From positions 1 to 64,000 of the forward strand of contig MU603993.1 in the NCBI GenBank assembly GCA_025201845.1: 64,000 nt of DNA, in the 5' to 3' direction. Every line of letters begins with the position of its first letter. The first letter of the stretch is position 1. The translations under genes and the position numbers were made by a program. The DNA comes from Martensiomyces pterosporus (Eukaryota; Kickxellomycota; Kickxellomycetes; Kickxellales; Kickxellaceae). Shown here piece after piece: positions 10,181 to 20,125 of this stretch. A model generated the notes under the pieces. It searched no databases. It was not told where the DNA came from and saw only the letters and a list, made by a program, of their open reading frames with translations.

Positions 10181-11185
10181 ATGCCGTCGATGAAAGCCGT
10201 GCTCCTCAAGCAGCCTGGTGGCATTGAGCAGCTGTATGTCGGCGAGACCGAAAAACCGGTGCCTTCTCCAAGCGAAATCCTCGTCAAGATCAGCTACTTT
10301 GCGCTGAATCGCATGGACAGCCTGCAGCGCAAAGGAGTATACCCTGTGCCGCCCCAAGCCAGCCCCATTCTGGGCGTCGAGATGGCAGGCGTTGTTGTCG
10401 AGACTGGTTCTGAGGCCAAGAGGTTCAAGGTCGGAGACAAGGTCTTTGGGCTTATGTACGGCGGTGCCTATGCTCAGTACGCCACAATCGACGAGAGCTC
10501 AGCACTTCCGCTGGGGTCTCTGTCACTGGACCTTGCCTCCTCGCTTCTGGAGTGCTGGTACACCGCGTACCAGGCCGTGCAGTACATTGGCCAGCTCAAG
10601 CCTGGCGAGGATATCCTGGTTCACGCAGCTGCTGGCGGTGTTGGCACTGCTGCTATTCAGCTGGCCAAGATGTATGGCGCGCGCCGTATCTTTGTCACTG
10701 CCAGCAGCCCAGCGAAGCTCGAGTACTGCAAGAAGCTGGGGGCAACGCACTTGATCAACTACCGCGAGCAGAGCTTCAAGGACGTCGTGCTCAGGGAGAC
10801 AGACGGCCGCGGCGTCGATGTTATCTGCGACTTCCTTCTGGCTAGCTACTTTAGCGACAATCTGGACTCGCTTGCCAGAGACGGCCGCTTGTCGCTACAG
10901 GCCACCATGGGCGGCACCGTTGTGGAGAAGCTGAACCTTGCTCCCATCCTGTTCAAGCGCCTTCGTGTTGAGGGCACCACTCTTCGCTCGCGGTCGCTTC
11001 CTTACCAGCGCGAGCTGCGGCGGGCATTCGAAGCGGAGGTGCTGCCTCATATCGAATCCGGCGAGGTGGAGTGGCACATTGCCAAGGTGTTCGACTGGGA
11101 GGACATCCAGGGTGCTCACAGGCTGCTTGAGGATGCGTCGTTCACCGGCAAGATCGTCGTCAGAGTCACCGACAACGACGACTAA
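10181..11185 (+). CDS. NAD(P)H:quinone oxidoreductase, zinc-free MDR family (TP53I3-like)
   Basis: A single-exon 334-residue protein of the medium-chain dehydrogenase/reductase superfamily. It begins MPSMKAVLLKQPGG, has the family's KISYFALNRMDSLQRKG and GVEMAGVVVETG, and the cofactor-binding glycine motif HAAAGGVGTAAIQLA near residue 150, then DGRGVDVICD. It lacks the structural and catalytic zinc cysteines of alcohol dehydrogenases, so it belongs with quinone oxidoreductases such as human TP53I3 and zeta-crystallin. It probably reduces quinones with NADPH in the cytosol. The frame stays open upstream but has no credible ATG there, so the ATG at 10181 is preferred. Confidence 0.92.
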   Translation: MPSMKAVLLKQPGGIEQLYVGETEKPVPSPSEILVKISYFALNRMDSLQRKGVYPVPPQASPILGVEMAGVVVETGSEAKRFKVGDKVFGLMYGGAYAQYATIDESSALPLGSLSLDLASSLLECWYTAYQAVQYIGQLKPGEDILVHAAAGGVGTAAIQLAKMYGARRIFVTASSPAKLEYCKKLGATHLINYREQSFKDVVLRETDGRGVDVICDFLLASYFSDNLDSLARDGRLSLQATMGGTVVEKLNLAPILFKRLRVEGTTLRSRSLPYQRELRRAFEAEVLPHIESGEVEWHIAKVFDWEDIQGAHRLLEDASFTGKIVVRVTDNDD

Positions 11186-11539: not shown

Positions 11540-13971
11540 ATGAGCGCTACGAATCTTGCTGGACTCCTAATCTACAGGATTTCCCCGCGGAGACCCACCG
11601 AATATCTGCTGCTGAATGACTCGTACGAGCACCAACGTCACTGGTACCCGCCCAAGGGCAGAAGGGTTGCCAACGAGGATGAGGTTCAGTAAGTCCTTTG
11701 AATCTTGTTGCTGTTTCCACATGCGAAATGAGCAGCGGCTGATCTCCCCCCAGCCATGCGCATAGCACATTCAGCACATTCCATCTGGGCGAATGGGGAA
11801 TTGCTGGTTCGCTGCTGCCACAGAGGAGGCATGCAAACAGGCTCTCAAAGCACGCTGCCCCTTGATGGCATAAACACACAAAACCTGTCTGTAGGTGTGC
11901 GCTGAGACAGACGCTTGATCTGACTGGCCTTGGCGCCAACGACCTGCTTATTGACGAGGCGTTCTGTGCTGAGCTCCAGTATGTCGACGGGATTCAGCCC
12001 AAGCAGGTTGTCTATACCCTGGCTCGTCTGGCCGAGCCCTCCCGCCACAGTATGATTCGCTGTGATGGCGCTGGAATGAAGTACCAGTGGTGCTCGCTCG
12101 ACCAGGCTCTCGAGAAGGTCGTTTTCAAGAGCATGCAGGACATCCTGACACAGGCTGATGACTATATCGAAGGCATTCGCGACGAGATCCTCTCAAGAGC
12201 CTCGCGCCCTCGCTGGCAGGTTGCAGGCGAAGAAGGCGGCCGCAGACAGCAGCGCGGCGGCGGCAGTTATCGCCAGTACGACGACAGCAACAACGGTGGC
12301 AGCAACGAAAGCGAAGGCGGTCCCAGCTCGTGGCGCACAGCTCGTGGCGGCTCGGGTGGACTCGACAGCCGCTTCAAAAACCTCTCTGTGGCCGATGGAC
12401 AGAGGGGTGGGCGTGGCTACAACGACAGAGACCAGCAGCCGAACGCTGGCTACTGGAGAGAGCCCACTGGCGCTAACAGCCGCGACAATGCCGGTGCTTC
12501 CCACCAGCGCCGGCCTCAGGACAACCCTCTGTACAAGACGAAGCTGTGCGACAAGTTTGAGCGGGATGGCGAGTGCCCCTATGGGCAGAAGTGCGTGTTT
12601 GCGCATGGAGAGCAGGAGCTTCGCTCGCGTGAGACCACTCCCTCGAGCGCTCCCAGGAACAACTCTGACGACAGGCAGCAGCGCAATTATCCATCTCCAT
12701 CCCCATACCAGCAGCAACAGCAGCAGCAGCAACAACAGCAGCAGCAACAGCGCCCTGCGCAGAACAATAACCGCCAGTACAATGCTAATCCTCTGTACAA
12801 GACAAGGCTCTGCCAGCGCTACTCGGAGCAAGGCGAGTGCCCATACGGCGAAAAATGCCAGTTTGCGCATGGCGAGAGCGAGCTGCGTGCCGCTCCTGAG
12901 CAGCCATCCCAGACACGGGCTCCTCGCGATAGTGGGCCGTACGAGCAGAGGGGCTCGAATGACCAGAGCCCCAACGGACTCAGCCGTGGTACCGCGAACA
13001 GGGCACAGACCTGGAGACGCGGTGGTCTGGGCAGCGGCAGCATCGAGCGCCCACAAAATGCTCCTCCGGTAAGGAACCCATCGTGGTCCAACACTGGAGC
13101 GCATGTCGTTGGCGAGTCTCCTAACCTCAGCGACGATGGGTCGCTAGACTCGCCCCGCTACCCCTCTTCGGTCCAGTCGCCCAAGCCAGCGAACAGCAGC
13201 GATGTGGACACCCCGCACGCAGCCCCGCTTGTTACCCCAGTCCCGCAGACCATCCCCTCGCAGACCAACCTGAGGGCAGCTGGCTCCAGCGCCACTACCC
13301 CAACAACACCCTCTTCCCAGAAAAAGTCGCAGGAGTTCAAGTCTGGCAGCCTCAAAAACGATGCCGACGATGAGAGGCCCTGGATCAAGGTTGTTGAGGT
13401 GACTGACAAGGACCTGCAAAAGATGGGCAGCCCTCTGGTCGATTCTGGCAATGGCGACTTTTCAAAGCAAAAGCACTCGAACAAGGCCGCTGAACTCGAG
13501 ATCCGCTTGACTGCCGAGCTCACCAGCTTCTTTGCCAAGGGCAGCTCGGACAGCCAGGAGCTCACGCTTCAGAGTGCGTTCAAGGAGATCACCCACATCG
13601 AGTTCCGGAACAGCCTAACCAAGCAGCAGCTGCTCAACATTGTCATCGCTGCTCTGTTTGCTCCGTGCAAGGCTACGGGTGTCTCGGAGGCTATTGTCAA
13701 GAGATCCGACCTGCTCAGCAAGATCGTCACCAAGCGGCAGGACCAGACATTCATGCTCAACGCGTGGCAGCGCCTGCTCACTGAGGATGAGAACGCCGCT
13801 GCGTGGCAGAAGAAGGCATCCGAGGTCCTTGGCGCTCTCTACGAGGCCTCGCTTCTCGATGAGGAGGTGTTCACCGCTTGGTTCGACAGCAAGAGCAGCG
13901 GCGACTGCAGCCCTGCCATTGCTGCGATGAAGCCATTCGCGCACTGGCTGGCCACTGCAGAGGAGGAGTGA
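11540..13971 (+). CDS. Nudix-like / tandem CCCH zinc finger / W2-domain fusion protein
   Basis: Exons 11540-11688 and 11895-13971 join across a 206-base intron (gtaagt donor, ctgtag acceptor) to give 741 residues. Residues 1 to about 130 align with diadenosine tetraphosphate hydrolase (NUDT2-type Nudix): EYLLLND, HWYPPKGRR, then AEL and QVVYTLARL. The Nudix box is G40-x5-E46-x7-R54 but continues QTLDLTGL, so three catalytic glutamates are replaced by Gln55, Asp58 and Leu59. Two CCCH fingers of TIS11 type (C-x8-C-x5-C-x3-H, each preceded by LYKTKLC or LYKTRLC) use C268/C277/C283/H287 and C356/C365/C371/H375, separated by a Gln-rich linker. Residues about 582-741 resemble a W2 domain as in eIF5 (VLGALYEASLLDEEVF, then KPFAHWLATAEEE). 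The likely role is RNA-binding post-transcriptional control with translation-machinery contact; this is inference from domains. Confidence 0.85.
12710..12751. repeat. CAG/CAA repeat encoding polyglutamine between the zinc fingers
   Basis: A run of mixed CAG and CAA codons encodes about 13-14 consecutive glutamines in the linker between the two CCCH fingers. The codon mix interrupts the pure repeat. Confidence 0.85.
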
Positions 13972-14261: not shown

Positions 14262-15644
14262 TTAGCTGTCAGTGTCCCTGGTGTTTTGCCGCTTAGCAGG
14301 TGCGCCGAGTCCCTCGGCTAAGCGCTTTCGGTACTTGATGCTCTTTTTGTGCTGGCGCGACCGAAGGTGCTGGTTGTATTCATCGTCGCCGTTCAGCCAC
14401 ACCTCGTATGCAGCGCCACTGCCCGACTCCTCGGCAGTCTTGGAGCAGACCTTGCACAGATGTCGCTTCCATGCCAAAATCGAATTGGGCTTATCCTTGA
14501 CCCTTGACAGCAGGCTTGCGGCGGCTTCAGATGTGGATGCGGGGTCGGGCAGCTCTGCACCTGCGACGAACTGCTTTGCAATGTCAACACCCTTGTCCCT
14601 AACCAACGCATTCCATGAGTTCAGGTCTGTAGCATCGAGGGCATAGGCGTGCGCCTTGGTCTCTTTGCCCAGCGTCGAGCTGCACTCGGGCAGAAGCTTA
14701 TTGCGGATCCAGGTGATTTGCCGCTTGGCATATCGCCGCGTAGACGTCTTCATATCCTCGATCCCCTGCTCCTTAAGCGCTGCGCGTTTGTCGGCGGGAG
14801 TGTCTGCATCGTCCACCGCCTTCAGATAGTCCCTAAACTCGCGGAACCCAATCGCCTGCTTCAGTCCCTTGGAGAAGTCATCGCTGGTGCCCCGGAACGC
14901 GCTCGGATCCTCTAGGCCCCTGCGCAGCATGTCAAGCTCGTCAAACATGCCGCGCTCAATCATGGTGTCCACACGGCTGTCCAGCCGCTCGTTGAGAACA
15001 GGCGCATCTGCGTACAGCCAGAAGAGCAGGGTGGGGAATCGCAGGCTCTCTTCCTTCTCACGCGCCTCCTCGCTTTCCTTCACCCACTCGCTGTGCCTTC
15101 TGCCTGTTGTTTGGAACACCTCGAGACTGCGCAGCACCTTGCGGCGGTTGTTTGGGTGCCAGTTCTCGGCCATTATTGGATCCACCGTCTTGAGCTCGTC
15201 CCACAGCTGCTGGTTTGATTTGTCCGCGCGAGATTCCTCGAACTTGCGATCCACAGCAGCAGCCTCCGCCGTGTTTTCCGGGGAGCTGCTTATCAGGGAC
15301 TTGCGGAACATGACGGATTGGATGTAGTAGTTTGTGCCGCCAACGAGGATGGGTATGCGGTTTCTCCCGTGGACCTCGTTGATCTTTTGCAGCGCATCCT
15401 GCTGAAATTCCTGTACGGTGTACTCCTGGTTGGAGTCGATGACGCCCAGGATATGGTGTGGCACGCCCATCATCTCGTCGTCTGCCACCTTGTTGGTGAT
15501 GATGCCGTAGCCCTTGTACACCTGCAGGGCATCGGCGTTGATCACCTCGCCGTTTATTGCTCGGGCGAGCTCAATTGCCAGCTGGGACTTTCCTACCCCC
15601 GTTGTCCCTGTGATCGCGATAAGGCCCTTGCGAAGCAGCGACAT
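14262..15644 (-). CDS. MOD5: tRNA dimethylallyltransferase (tRNA isopentenyltransferase)
   Basis: A single-exon 460-residue protein. The P-loop GTTGVGKS lies near residues 11-18, followed by EVINADALQVYKG and VPHHILGVID, then PILVGGTNYYIQSV, all typical of the MiaA/Mod5 family. The C-terminal part adds a C2H2 matrin-type zinc finger (CKVC ... HLRSRQHKK), as in eukaryotic Mod5/TRIT1. The enzyme transfers a dimethylallyl group from DMAPP to A37 of tRNAs reading UNN codons, in cytosol and mitochondria. The start at 15644 gives a protein that begins four residues before the conserved P-loop strand, so no long targeting sequence is obvious. It lies 159 bases downstream of RAB3GAP1 on the same strand. 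Confidence 0.95.
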   Translation of the reverse strand: MSLLRKGLIAITGTTGVGKSQLAIELARAINGEVINADALQVYKGYGIITNKVADDEMMGVPHHILGVIDSNQEYTVQEFQQDALQKINEVHGRNRIPILVGGTNYYIQSVMFRKSLISSSPENTAEAAAVDRKFEESRADKSNQQLWDELKTVDPIMAENWHPNNRRKVLRSLEVFQTTGRRHSEWVKESEEAREKEESLRFPTLLFWLYADAPVLNERLDSRVDTMIERGMFDELDMLRRGLEDPSAFRGTSDDFSKGLKQAIGFREFRDYLKAVDDADTPADKRAALKEQGIEDMKTSTRRYAKRQITWIRNKLLPECSSTLGKETKAHAYALDATDLNSWNALVRDKGVDIAKQFVAGAELPDPASTSEAAASLLSRVKDKPNSILAWKRHLCKVCSKTAEESGSGAAYEVWLNGDDEYNQHLRSRQHKKSIKYRKRLAEGLGAPAKRQNTRDTDS

Positions 15645-15803
15645 TGTTATACGCCCAAGGGAAACGAAAAGACAGCGCAATATAGGATCTATGCTTTTGC
15701 AGTGAAGAAACGACAGCGGCTCAGCGGGATGGGAGGGCTGCTCACCTGGCCGTGGGTGTGGCAAATATTTACGGGCAGGGCCACGTGCACCGCGTGGTCT
15801 GGG

Positions 15804-18800
15804 CTATTCGGCGGCTGTGCCCTGGACCTTGACCCGGCTGTGCACCACGCGGATTGACTTGTCGTCCTCAATGGCCACATGCATGCGCTGCGTTGTAGCG
15901 TTGGAGTCAGAGACGGGCTGTAAGTCCGGTGCCTGGGAGCTGAACACGTACTCGCGGCGAGTGGGTGCCATCGTCGATATGCCGTGCTTGGACAGAGACT
16001 TGAGGACAACCCGCTGCTCCTTGCGGTCATCAACAGTCGCCCGACCACATGTGACCAGCCTTTCCACGAGCGAGTACTGCTCAGGAAACTTGTGCAGAAG
16101 CGAGATGCACCGGCTAGCTTGCACCTCGAGGTCCTCAAGGCCATCAAGAAGTGAGCTATAGATCGGGCTTTCGGGGTCCACTGCCAGCCAGTTGATCTCA
16201 AGCACGATCTTTCTGCCAATGGCAGCAAGCTTGGCACGCAGGCACTCCATCCGGTGGATGACCGGCTGCCTGTACAGTCTCTCGTACGCGATAAGGAATA
16301 TTGTTGGCAGGAGCCCTGTGAACAGCGAATGCACCGGAATGCCCTCCAAGTAATGCAGCGCCTTCTCTGCCTCCATCTCGTAGTCAAACAACAGCTTTTG
16401 CTTATCCGCCGGCACACGTCTGGCGTCTGTCCAGAGCTGCTGCCACAGGTTTCCTTCGCCCTCCGACATGCGCACGCTGAGGCTGCCGTCCTTCTCGTCG
16501 CTGCCCTCAGGAACAATCCAGTCGCGCGGAGAGTGCCAGCGAACAAAATCAGCCAGCGAGCAGCTTGGGTTTGCTGCCTTGAACGACTCCATGTCCGAAA
16601 TGAGTTCGGCGCATTGCAGCTTTGCTCGCTGCTTGGCGCCCTCGCTCGATGTCCCAAGGCCCATCAGGATCGCCTCTCGTTCCCGCAGCATGTCCTCCGT
16701 TAACACCGGGGGCATCTGTATCTTTGGGATCCAGAGCGGCTCATTGCTACCCAGCAGCTTGAGGTTTTCCGACGGAACAAGCCCACCAACGCGCTCGTCG
16801 CTGGCAGGCTCACCGGGTGTCTTCGATTCAGCGTCCTTTTCTGGCGCACCACTGCTCCTAGCATTGCTGCTCTTTCTTGGGCTGGCACCAGCACCCGTGT
16901 CTGATGTGGGTTTGGCAGCGGTCAGTGACGGGGTTGCACAGGAGCCACCAGCCATCACGGACGGCCGCTCCCGCTCGTACACGTCGCTGATGTGGTGGAA
17001 TCCTGAGGTCGAATCCACACTCGAGGACATTGTCAGGTCAACGTAGTTGGAGTCGCGGTTGCTCTGGCCAGGAATCGACACGCCTTTGCTGCTCACATCG
17101 ACCTCAGATGTCGATCTCGCCGCGTTGGCAGGGAGGCGCACGGATGCGAACGATGAGAGAGTAGCTCTGTCGTCAATGCTGCTCTCGCGGTTAAGCGACA
17201 GCGTGCTATTGCTATCGTCATCAATACAGATGGCCGGACAAACATCGCAGTCCTTGTCATCACCGCCGACAGCCTTGCAGCCACCATCATCACAGCCGTC
17301 ATCCTCATTTTCGTCGTTGCAACCTGCATCCACCTCTTCTGCCGACACGAACCCATCGCTATCATTTGCCTCAGAGTCGGCCTTGATTTCCTCAAACCCG
17401 TCCAGATCGCCAGATGGGCTCCGCGGGCTATCCACGCTATCGCTGGTGCTCGACCGCCCGTCTTGGGACCGTATGGATTTTAGGAGGCGGCCAATAGGGC
17501 GGCGTATGCGAGAGCCAGGCACCCATGCACCTTGGCCCGATGCGGGGCCAGCATCCGCAAGCCTGCTGCGAATCTGGTCATGGACGTGGGATCGGATGCG
17601 GCGAATCAAACCATCAGACTCTGGGCTCTCTCGACCCCCGCTGTCTTTCAACGAGCAACTCTTGGCGAAGCCGCCAGATGGACTGGCCGACGCAGCTTCC
17701 ACGTTGGCAAACATGTGCAACGCAGCATGACCAGTATGAGACGGCGGCGGATCGCGTCGAAGCAGCCTTCGCTCTTGGCAGCAGTTGAGCATCTCCAGCT
17801 TTTGGTATACCAGCAGGTGCTTGAGGTGCACGTTATATCGAGCCGGGGCTATTCCTAATCCGTTAGACCCGGCCAGCGAGGCGCCGGTCGCAGCAGCGGA
17901 TGATGATGTGGGTGTCTCGGCACCGGACGCCACTCCGTCCTGGCCAGCCGCATACTCTGCCTCCGTGGCGACCTTTGGCAGGAACCTTTCGTTCTCCCAC
18001 CGCCACCTGACTTCCTTCAGCGCCATTGCCCACAGCAGTCGCAGGAACGTCATTATTGAGGGTGCACGCCAAAAGTCGGCCGACCTCTTAGCCGTTGCAA
18101 CCAGAATGATCTCGCTTAGCCGCCACAGCAACGAGCGATACGGCACAGCAGTTCCATGTGGCATGCGCGCAATAAGCTGTGTGACTGTAGACGGTCGCGA
18201 GGCTGGCCTGGCATTGGCATATACTTCCGAGATCGTCCTTTCCAGCCGCTCTTCGAATGCCCGAGACGCCTGCTCGTCCATCGTGTCCACCGCCAGCCCA
18301 GGCGGGGCAATGTGTGGGTTGCCAGATGCACCAAACAGATCGATAAGCATGTCGCTAGTAATCTCGGCATGCGCCTCCATCTGCTCTGAAAGACTGAGGT
18401 GTCGGTGTCTGCTTGCCTGGTCTGCTGATTGGGTCCATGCAGCAAACGCATCCTCCAAAGCCTCGGTGAGCATGGTGCGTTCCATATCGGCAGGGAGTAG
18501 CTGAGCAGAGAGCGACCACGCCGTGGCAGTCTTCAGATACAGCTTGTCGCGCCCAGTAGGTTGCGGGTCAATATACATGCCGCATGGCGAGGGCTGGAAA
18601 AGTGCGCTGAGCGTTATTGTGCGCAGGGGGTCGTTTGCTGGCCCGATATTCAGGTCGCCAGCACGATACTGGAAATCGGACGAGGCAGTGTTCCAATCGC
18701 GGCTGTAAGTGTTCTTGACCGTGTACACGTGCAGGGCACTCAAGCTGACTGTCTTTGAGACAAACTCCCACTCCTGGGTGAGCGCCGCCACCGCTGTATT

Positions 18801-19703
18801 GCTGGATCTACGGTCGACTTGTCCGCCGTCCTTGGCGAACGGCGCATTAGCCAAGATGCGGAACGAGTTTGAGTACAGCTCAACCAGCCCATTGAGCTGG
18901 AGATATGCCGAGGGCGCCTGTGCCAAGTACGCCGACTCAAACTTCTTCTCCACTGCCATGACGCTGTGGCTGGCACCGGCCTCTTCTCTGTTTGCCTGCT
19001 CGGTGGCCAGCGCCCGACCAAGTGACCTGCCTGTAAATAGATATCGCCAGGCATCGCCGACGGGGACAAAAACGGGCACCTGACATCGCACATTCTGTGC
19101 AGCGATGTTCATTGAGGACATTAAAAGCTTTGCTGTCTCCAGCGACACGCTGTAGTTCCCGCCAATCTCAGCCGAGCCTGTACCTCCATCGAGAGTGTCC
19201 TCCGCCCAGTCGCTCTCGTCGCCAAGATACCTCAGGTACATGATGAGGCGGCTGCCGGTCCAGCGATGCATCGGATGCCACGCAGGCTCTACCCCCGAGT
19301 GCCCGCGGTCAACCTCGAGCTCTGTCGCATAGACCGGAGGGAAGAGGCCATCGAGCCTGGCGGACTTTGTGCCGGGCAGAGGCTTGCTGGAGTCGGGGTG
19401 GGGCATTAGGGGGTGGAGGGAGAGCGTGAGAGCATATGCTGTGCCTCTAAACGACAGCTGCGATTCTCTGGTGCATAGCTCTGCTATCTGGGCTAGAACC
19501 CGGCTCCTGTCCTGCTTGTGTTTGACAAGCAGCTGCTGGCATTTCTCGCTCAGCTCGTCCGCGCGGAACTCGCCAAGACCGCCATCGCTGACCTTCCATT
19601 TATACAAAACGGCTTCTATTGAGGCAATGAACTTTTCCCAGGACGATGCAGCAGTGTAGTCAACAAGCTCGTAGTTTTCGTCATCGACATTGGAGTTTGC
19701 CAT
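15804..19703 (-). CDS. RAB3GAP1: Rab3 GTPase-activating protein catalytic subunit
   Basis: A single-exon 1299-residue protein. Diagnostic blocks are WHPMHRWTGSRLIMYLR near residue 150, FKAANPSCSLADFVRWHSPRDW near residue 1050, and LWTDARRVPADKQKLLFDYEMEAEKALHYLE shortly after, all matching RAB3GAP1. The DFVRWHSPRD block is the most conserved part of the catalytic domain and probably carries the arginine finger. The partner subunit RAB3GAP2 is not in the window. The complex acts on Rab3 as a GAP and on Rab18 as an exchange factor at the ER and lipid droplets in animals. Residues about 770-830 form a very acidic, Cys-containing insert, and the surrounding 250 residues are Ser-rich and probably disordered. 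The first ATG of the frame is at 19703; the gene is divergent from RFC. Confidence 0.93.
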   Translation of the reverse strand: MANSNVDDENYELVDYTAASSWEKFIASIEAVLYKWKVSDGGLGEFRADELSEKCQQLLVKHKQDRSRVLAQIAELCTRESQLSFRGTAYALTLSLHPLMPHPDSSKPLPGTKSARLDGLFPPVYATELEVDRGHSGVEPAWHPMHRWTGSRLIMYLRYLGDESDWAEDTLDGGTGSAEIGGNYSVSLETAKLLMSSMNIAAQNVRCQVPVFVPVGDAWRYLFTGRSLGRALATEQANREEAGASHSVMAVEKKFESAYLAQAPSAYLQLNGLVELYSNSFRILANAPFAKDGGQVDRRSSNTAVAALTQEWEFVSKTVSLSALHVYTVKNTYSRDWNTASSDFQYRAGDLNIGPANDPLRTITLSALFQPSPCGMYIDPQPTGRDKLYLKTATAWSLSAQLLPADMERTMLTEALEDAFAAWTQSADQASRHRHLSLSEQMEAHAEITSDMLIDLFGASGNPHIAPPGLAVDTMDEQASRAFEERLERTISEVYANARPASRPSTVTQLIARMPHGTAVPYRSLLWRLSEIILVATAKRSADFWRAPSIMTFLRLLWAMALKEVRWRWENERFLPKVATEAEYAAGQDGVASGAETPTSSSAAATGASLAGSNGLGIAPARYNVHLKHLLVYQKLEMLNCCQERRLLRRDPPPSHTGHAALHMFANVEAASASPSGGFAKSCSLKDSGGRESPESDGLIRRIRSHVHDQIRSRLADAGPASGQGAWVPGSRIRRPIGRLLKSIRSQDGRSSTSDSVDSPRSPSGDLDGFEEIKADSEANDSDGFVSAEEVDAGCNDENEDDGCDDGGCKAVGGDDKDCDVCPAICIDDDSNSTLSLNRESSIDDRATLSSFASVRLPANAARSTSEVDVSSKGVSIPGQSNRDSNYVDLTMSSSVDSTSGFHHISDVYERERPSVMAGGSCATPSLTAAKPTSDTGAGASPRKSSNARSSGAPEKDAESKTPGEPASDERVGGLVPSENLKLLGSNEPLWIPKIQMPPVLTEDMLREREAILMGLGTSSEGAKQRAKLQCAELISDMESFKAANPSCSLADFVRWHSPRDWIVPEGSDEKDGSLSVRMSEGEGNLWQQLWTDARRVPADKQKLLFDYEMEAEKALHYLEGIPVHSLFTGLLPTIFLIAYERLYRQPVIHRMECLRAKLAAIGRKIVLEINWLAVDPESPIYSSLLDGLEDLEVQASRCISLLHKFPEQYSLVERLVTCGRATVDDRKEQRVVLKSLSKHGISTMAPTRREYVFSSQAPDLQPVSDSNATTQRMHVAIEDDKSIRVVHSRVKVQGTAAE

Positions 19704-20125
19704 TGCAACAGAACGCGGCAAGCAGGTATACTAAGCAGGCGGGGGTTGTGAATGAGAGAAAGCACTGGGGCAGTGACCTCACTGAAGCGAGCGCGGGACG
19801 GCAGTGCTGAAGCGCACATGCGCGTACGACATGCTCGCCGAGAGCCGGTGAAGGCGGCTAAACACGCAAGCCGCTTGCTCAGCAGGCGAGCCGATGCGGG
19901 AAACGCGCGCCGGTGTTGCTGGGAGAAAAAGTAAACAGCATTTCCCCCGCAGCCCTCGCTGCGTTTATATTGCTGGCCTGCAGCCGCCGCTGCTCTCCCC
20001 TCTGTATTCCCTGCTCTCCTTCGAAACAGCGCCAGCCTTGGTTCGCAATTACTCGGCCACTCTCACCTGATTCGGGCAAGCCACGTCGAAACAACAGAAC
20101 AGAACAGCACGGCAAGCAAGCAGCC
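19704..20125. other. Divergent promoter region, RAB3GAP1 and RFC subunit
   Basis: 422 bases between divergent start codons, GC-rich. No additional gene is supported. Confidence 0.6.

Follow-up and report, generated by a model that had tools for sequence, protein, structure and literature searches.

The question raised by this locus is whether a Nudix domain, two CCCH zinc fingers and a W2 domain of the type found in translation initiation factors belong to one conserved protein and, if so, whether the Nudix part is still an enzyme. The locus lies at 11540-13971 on the forward strand of the window, the whole stretch of 64,000 nucleotides analysed here (positions 1 to 64,000 of contig MU603993.1, assembly GCA_025201845.1) from the fungus Martensiomyces pterosporus. 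The gene encodes these domains in this order, the Nudix and W2 parts have the corresponding folds, the architecture is conserved across a family of fungal proteins, and catalytic residues of diadenosine tetraphosphate (Ap4A) hydrolases have been lost from the Nudix domain. We read the product as a member of a three-part, probably non-hydrolysing family that would tune initiation on chosen mRNAs, a mechanism to which we assign a probability of roughly one half.

Gene model, domains and family distribution

Two exons, 11540-11688 and 11895-13971, together form a continuous reading frame of 741 amino acids. Exon 1 covers residues 1-49 and runs two bases into codon 50. It contains the N-terminal portion of a NUDT2-type Nudix domain, with the motif HWYPPKG and the opening part of the Nudix box, which is split by a predicted GT-AG intron (11689-11894). 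Exon 2 lies in one open frame of 701 codons that holds the remaining Nudix domain (11895-12219, to residue 158), linkers, both fingers, the W2 domain and the stop codon, and the unspliced reading frame meets a stop directly after exon 1. Nine donors and 19 acceptors were tried, giving 24 splice options that stay open, and these were ranked with a Nudix profile of homologues from which the M. pterosporus row was excluded. The 11688/11895 join, which an earlier note on this DNA had proposed, scored highest (231.0 bits vs 210.2 for the runner-up). An alternative splice that brings back catalytic glutamates was rejected: none of the 24 options scores better, and the Gln, Asp and Leu codons that replace these residues all lie within exon 2.

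All three domain assignments are matched at the sequence level, and those of the Nudix and W2 domains are also matched in fold, in agreement with the earlier note. Pfam reports two zf-CCCH matches (3.7e-20) and a W2 match (PF02020) at residues 667-741 (2e-11, 44.2 bits vs a curated cut-off of 30) in a region with the W2 HEAT fold. Scanned by themselves, the N-terminal 157 residues give a NUDIX match of 24.6 bits (cut-off 21.1); in the full-length protein the match falls to 20.6 bits, slightly below the cut-off. The Nudix fold is closest to Ap4A hydrolase, with the human enzyme matched in the PDB at 3e-17, and the fingers are modelled with low confidence.

Homologues were collected in three word-limited protein searches that gave at least 115 distinct proteins, and the counts that follow are among the matches listed. 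The family comprises 93 proteins chosen from the hit tables, namely 92 retained homologues and the M. pterosporus protein, and 23 homologues (P0033, P0034 and P0046-P0066) were set aside as CCCH-only. With profiles made from family members, the W2 profile including M. pterosporus, the full Nudix-CCCH-CCCH-W2 order is found in 83/93 proteins, so that the same order occurs in related fungi as a single gene, a result that the earlier note had named as support. Six of the ten proteins with an incomplete order are marked partial by their source, and a profile scan of the set-aside homologues found a Nudix domain in 0/23, a W2 domain in 0/23 and the full order in 0/23. Rows P0019 and P0068 were counted although their box looks mis-modelled.

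Judged by the genus names of their sources, the members belong to Kickxellales, Dimargaris, Mucorales, Endogonales, Calcarisporiella, Mortierellales, Glomeromycota, chytrids and Quaeritorhiza. On a quick tree of 51 members, these nine groups can be placed with eight changes, the fewest possible. A single branch separates each of Kickxellales, Mucorales, Mortierellales and Glomeromycota from the rest, the chytrids need two changes, and one Dimargaris and two chytrid rows sit on long branches whose exact placement is unsure. The fit to these groups at the minimum number of changes points to a widespread, vertically inherited fungal family rather than a chance local event. Among the matches listed there was no Dikarya or non-fungal protein of this architecture, and Dikarya matches, such as those from Mycena and Pleurotus, contain CCCH domains only; this does not prove that Dikarya lack the architecture.

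The view in the earlier note that no protein of this order had been described does not survive, as the combination is already present in Pasterny et al. 2025 (PMC12210691) as the fungal Nudix 'subfamily A', which comprises 84 proteins found only in fungi, most of them with W2 and zf-CCCH domains. That source gives the subfamily a most likely distant relation to NUDT2, with 51% of residues predicted to be disordered, and the M. pterosporus protein has the features of its Table 2 (a fungal protein that combines a NUDT2-like PF00293 domain with zf-CCCH and W2 domains). The new subfamilies are presented there as enzymes with a well-preserved box and at least two metal-ligand glutamates, and docking across subfamilies favours diadenosine triphosphate (Ap3A) and Ap4A, together with NADPH and NAD+. 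Its main text contains none of the terms 'eIF', 'initiation factor', 'RNA-binding', 'zinc finger', 'pseudoenzyme' and 'inactive'. What is added here is the evidence that a conserved domain of Ap4A-hydrolase fold, which probably does not cleave, is coupled to one module that binds RNA and another of initiation-factor type. Neither the pseudoenzyme pattern nor the translation reading was found in open-licence papers, a result that does not prove them unpublished. Searches by domain name gave no paper on the combination, and a search by Pfam accession found PMC12210691.

Catalytic residues of the Nudix domain

Of the 93 members, 89 have a Nudix match, and these were aligned to human, worm and malaria-parasite Ap4A hydrolases. 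The profile was built from 81 rows that had been selected by a WxxPKG pattern, M. pterosporus excluded, whereas the members counted were taken irrespective of that pattern; family positions are given in human numbering, and each denominator is the number of members with a letter at that position. The third glutamate of the RExxEE motif (E62) and H111 are common to all three solved Ap4A hydrolases in the alignment. Neither is present in the family, where Glu occupies the E62 position in 0/86 members (Ile in 36, Leu in 22) and His the H111 position in 0/88 (Gly in 86). Glu is found at the E58 position in 73/86, at E61 in 50/86 (Asp in 30/86) and at E110 in 44/88, while E49 is kept in 83/84 and R57 in 85/86.

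In M. pterosporus, the box GRRVANEDEVQCALRQTLDLTGL departs from the canonical GX5EX7REUXEEXGU, with Q55 (codon CAG, 11908-11910), D58 (11917-11919) and L59 (11920-11922) at the three RExxEE glutamates, and A109 and G110 replace the Glu-His pair of Ap4A hydrolases. These three residues, along with G40, E46 and R54, are present as the earlier note had read them; the glutamate loss that it described is family-wide at the third position and is not family-wide at the other two. Gln at the E58 position is confined to M. pterosporus and Dipsacomyces (2/82 members selected by a WxxPKG pattern), and since Ala at this position renders human NUDT2 inactive on PPP-RNA (PMC8616924), the replacement counts against activity. 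The residue losses support the guess that catalysis has been lost, a conclusion that is well supported for the M. pterosporus protein and likely for the family, and the family-wide counts settle that the pseudoenzyme pattern belongs to the family and is not a single-species oddity. A search of the open-licence literature for the roles of Ap4A hydrolase active-site residues found nothing relevant.

Eight residues shared with Ap4A hydrolases are nevertheless kept in 94-100% of members: W38 (83/83), P41 (83/83), K42 (82/83), G43 (84/84), Y82 (86/86), K89 (86/86), W116 (89/89) and H37 (78/83). Residues of this type presumably line the Ap4A pocket.

As a control, the genome was scanned for Nudix matches, of which 11 were found; a complete GX5EX7REX2EEXG box was read by pattern in five, and the other six were unread by pattern and are not negatives. 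The PF00293 scan did not list the Nudix-CCCH-W2 gene itself, showing that split or divergent Nudix genes can escape it. Among the fetched loci, human NUDT2 scored highest against exon 2 of this gene (31.9 bits), followed by the frame L008 (28.8 bits); no clear separate NUDT2 was seen there, though one may have been missed.

Fingers, W2 domain and a putative role in translation initiation

Finger 1 (12547-12606, residues 268-287) and finger 2 (12811-12870, residues 356-375) both have the form C-x8-C-x5-C-x3-H and are preceded by YKTKL and YKTRL, respectively. The gap between them is 68 residues, within a range of 26-123 across the 91 of 93 members in which two fingers were read, whereas the two fingers of the tristetraprolin (TTP) family are separated by 18 residues. 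The wide spacing indicates TIS11-like fingers and not a TTP-type tandem unit, and the TIS11-type label of the earlier note is therefore apt for each finger and inapt for the pair. A separate two-finger protein of the same genome (L019) has an 18-residue gap, counted by eye.

The C-terminal region (13366-13968) consists of a WIKVV linker motif and a helical W2 domain, modelled with confidence from about 13471, and ends in two segments rich in aromatic and acidic residues, LLDEEVFTAWF and PFAHWLATAEEE. A PDB search with the M. pterosporus W2 domain alone was weak (eIF5 at 0.0079), and one with an eight-member W2 profile gave a strong match. Positions Y, E, W, W, E and E are invariant among the eight family W2 domains. 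In eIF5, 5MP and eIF2B-epsilon, the W2 domain binds to the lysine boxes of the eIF2-beta tail (PMC12224906). Inhibition of eIF2 by 5MP has been described for several branches of eukaryotes (PMC4176352). The invariant positions are compatible with putative binding to the eIF2-beta lysine boxes without proving it. As eIF5 (L001), 5MP (L002) and eIF2B-epsilon (L003) are all encoded separately in the same genome, the M. pterosporus protein is an additional W2 protein. The linker segment before W2 (13366-13420) follows the pattern W-[MIL]-[KRH]-[VI]-[VIL], which was found in 53/93 family proteins. Elsewhere in the genome, a 1210-codon frame (L005) has a weak W2-like match (4e-4) below the cut-off.

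The ligand, RNA target, eIF2 binding, partners and direction of regulation that we infer run as follows. The likeliest account is an old pseudoenzyme that would bind Ap4A or RNA 5' ends without cleavage and bring eIF2 or eIF3 to U/A-rich mRNAs. The NUDT2-derived Nudix domain would no longer hydrolyse and would retain its substrate pocket, with a ligand most likely to be Ap4A-like alarmones or polyphosphorylated or capped RNA 5' ends, comparable to CFIm25/NUDT21; the two TIS11-like fingers, on flexible linkers, would bind U/A-rich mRNA; and the eIF5/eIF2B-epsilon-type W2 domain would contact initiation factors, with the lysine-rich eIF2-beta tail and/or eIF3 as the most likely partners. The whole protein would bring an eIF5/5MP-like competitor to selected mRNAs and repress or tune the initiation of these, and the nucleotide would act as the input that reports stress. 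An mRNA-specific translation regulator, as suggested in the earlier note, is plausible.

A bolder and more tentative form of this proposal is an old fungal sensor-effector, in which the dead Ap4A hydrolase would sense the stress alarmone, or alternatively a 5' end of Np4/PPP type, and switch initiation on selected mRNAs via the W2 domain and fingers of the same chain. If true, this would give early-diverging fungi a direct connection between dinucleoside-polyphosphate signalling and translation that depends on eIF2, apparently lost in Dikarya. To our knowledge, Ap4A has no clear effector in eukaryotic translation. A conserved protein that unites RNA-binding fingers, a W2 domain of eIF5 type and a pocket like that of Ap4A hydrolases would make an Ap4A-translation link directly testable, and the findings suggest that proteins listed as hydrolases may not be such enzymes.

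The published survey implies instead that the protein is still active as an Ap3A/Ap4A hydrolase or a decapping enzyme, with the fingers and the W2 domain directing it to mRNAs. The NUDT2-type fold, the retention of E49, R57 and, in most members, E58, and the docking preference for Ap3A/Ap4A in PMC12210691 are all in keeping with such an enzyme, and the description of nudD and gmm as hydrolysing without two box glutamates, with the third kept, likewise weighs against our reading. However, it is the third glutamate that no family member retains, H111 is missing with it although both are kept in the three solved Ap4A hydrolases, and the M. pterosporus protein also lacks the E58 on which NUDT2 activity depends, so that we consider an active enzyme unlikely.

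A TIS11-type adaptor for mRNA decay or localisation is a possibility that we hold at lower confidence than initiation control: the fingers would pick U/A-rich mRNAs, and the Nudix and W2 domains would serve as protein-protein modules for decay or transport machinery and not for initiation factors. That two adjacent genes have been read as one was rejected as highly improbable. The public models P0001 and P0026 carry dehydrogenase domains fused on, apparently from an upstream neighbour, but the single 701-codon frame holds the remaining Nudix domain, both fingers and W2, and the domain order recurs throughout most of the family. The non-hydrolysing initiation regulator is the reading that we retain.

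Neighbouring genes and comparison with known systems

Directly upstream, at 10181-11185, is a gene for a zinc-type (quinone-oxidoreductase-like) dehydrogenase, and the occurrence of dehydrogenase domains with fingers and W2 in P0001 and P0026 suggests conserved gene order and annotation read-through. On the reverse strand, a tRNA isopentenyltransferase gene (14262-15803; IPPT, 7e-72) converges on the Nudix-CCCH-W2 gene, and a 1308-codon frame (15804-19730) matches the Rab3 GTPase-activating protein catalytic subunit (5e-55).

Among known systems, NUDT2 and other asymmetrical Ap4A hydrolases are stand-alone active enzymes with RExxEE and a Glu-His pair, whereas the family lacks the third Glu and the His. 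We know of no fingers or W2 domain in CFIm25/NUDT21, which belongs to another Pfam Nudix family (PF13869) and acts in 3'-end processing. It resembles the family in being a Nudix protein with the third Glu replaced; it binds RNA (PMC5389931), and Ap4A binds at its RNA site (PMC4856261). TTP/TIS11 proteins share the C-x8-C-x5-C-x3-H fingers with a YKT lead-in, and differ from the family in its spacing and its Nudix and W2 domains. No paper on a tristetraprolin-type protein with W2 or NUDT2 was found in the open-licence literature, and no tristetraprolin paper was among the matches listed (best 20 of 89) for Mucor or early-diverging fungi. 5MP/BZW likewise carries W2 at its C-terminus, has neither GAP nor GEF domain and is the precedent for an eIF5 competitor (PMC4176352), but it has its own MA3/HEAT N-terminal part (PMC12224906) and none of these fingers; PF25504, the N-terminal HEAT domain of 5MP type, was found in L002 and was absent from the M. 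pterosporus protein at E 0.1. Subfamily A of PMC12210691 shares the domains and NUDT2 likeness of the M. pterosporus protein, and differs in that the paper describes enzymes, whereas the third glutamate is absent in 86/86 members here.
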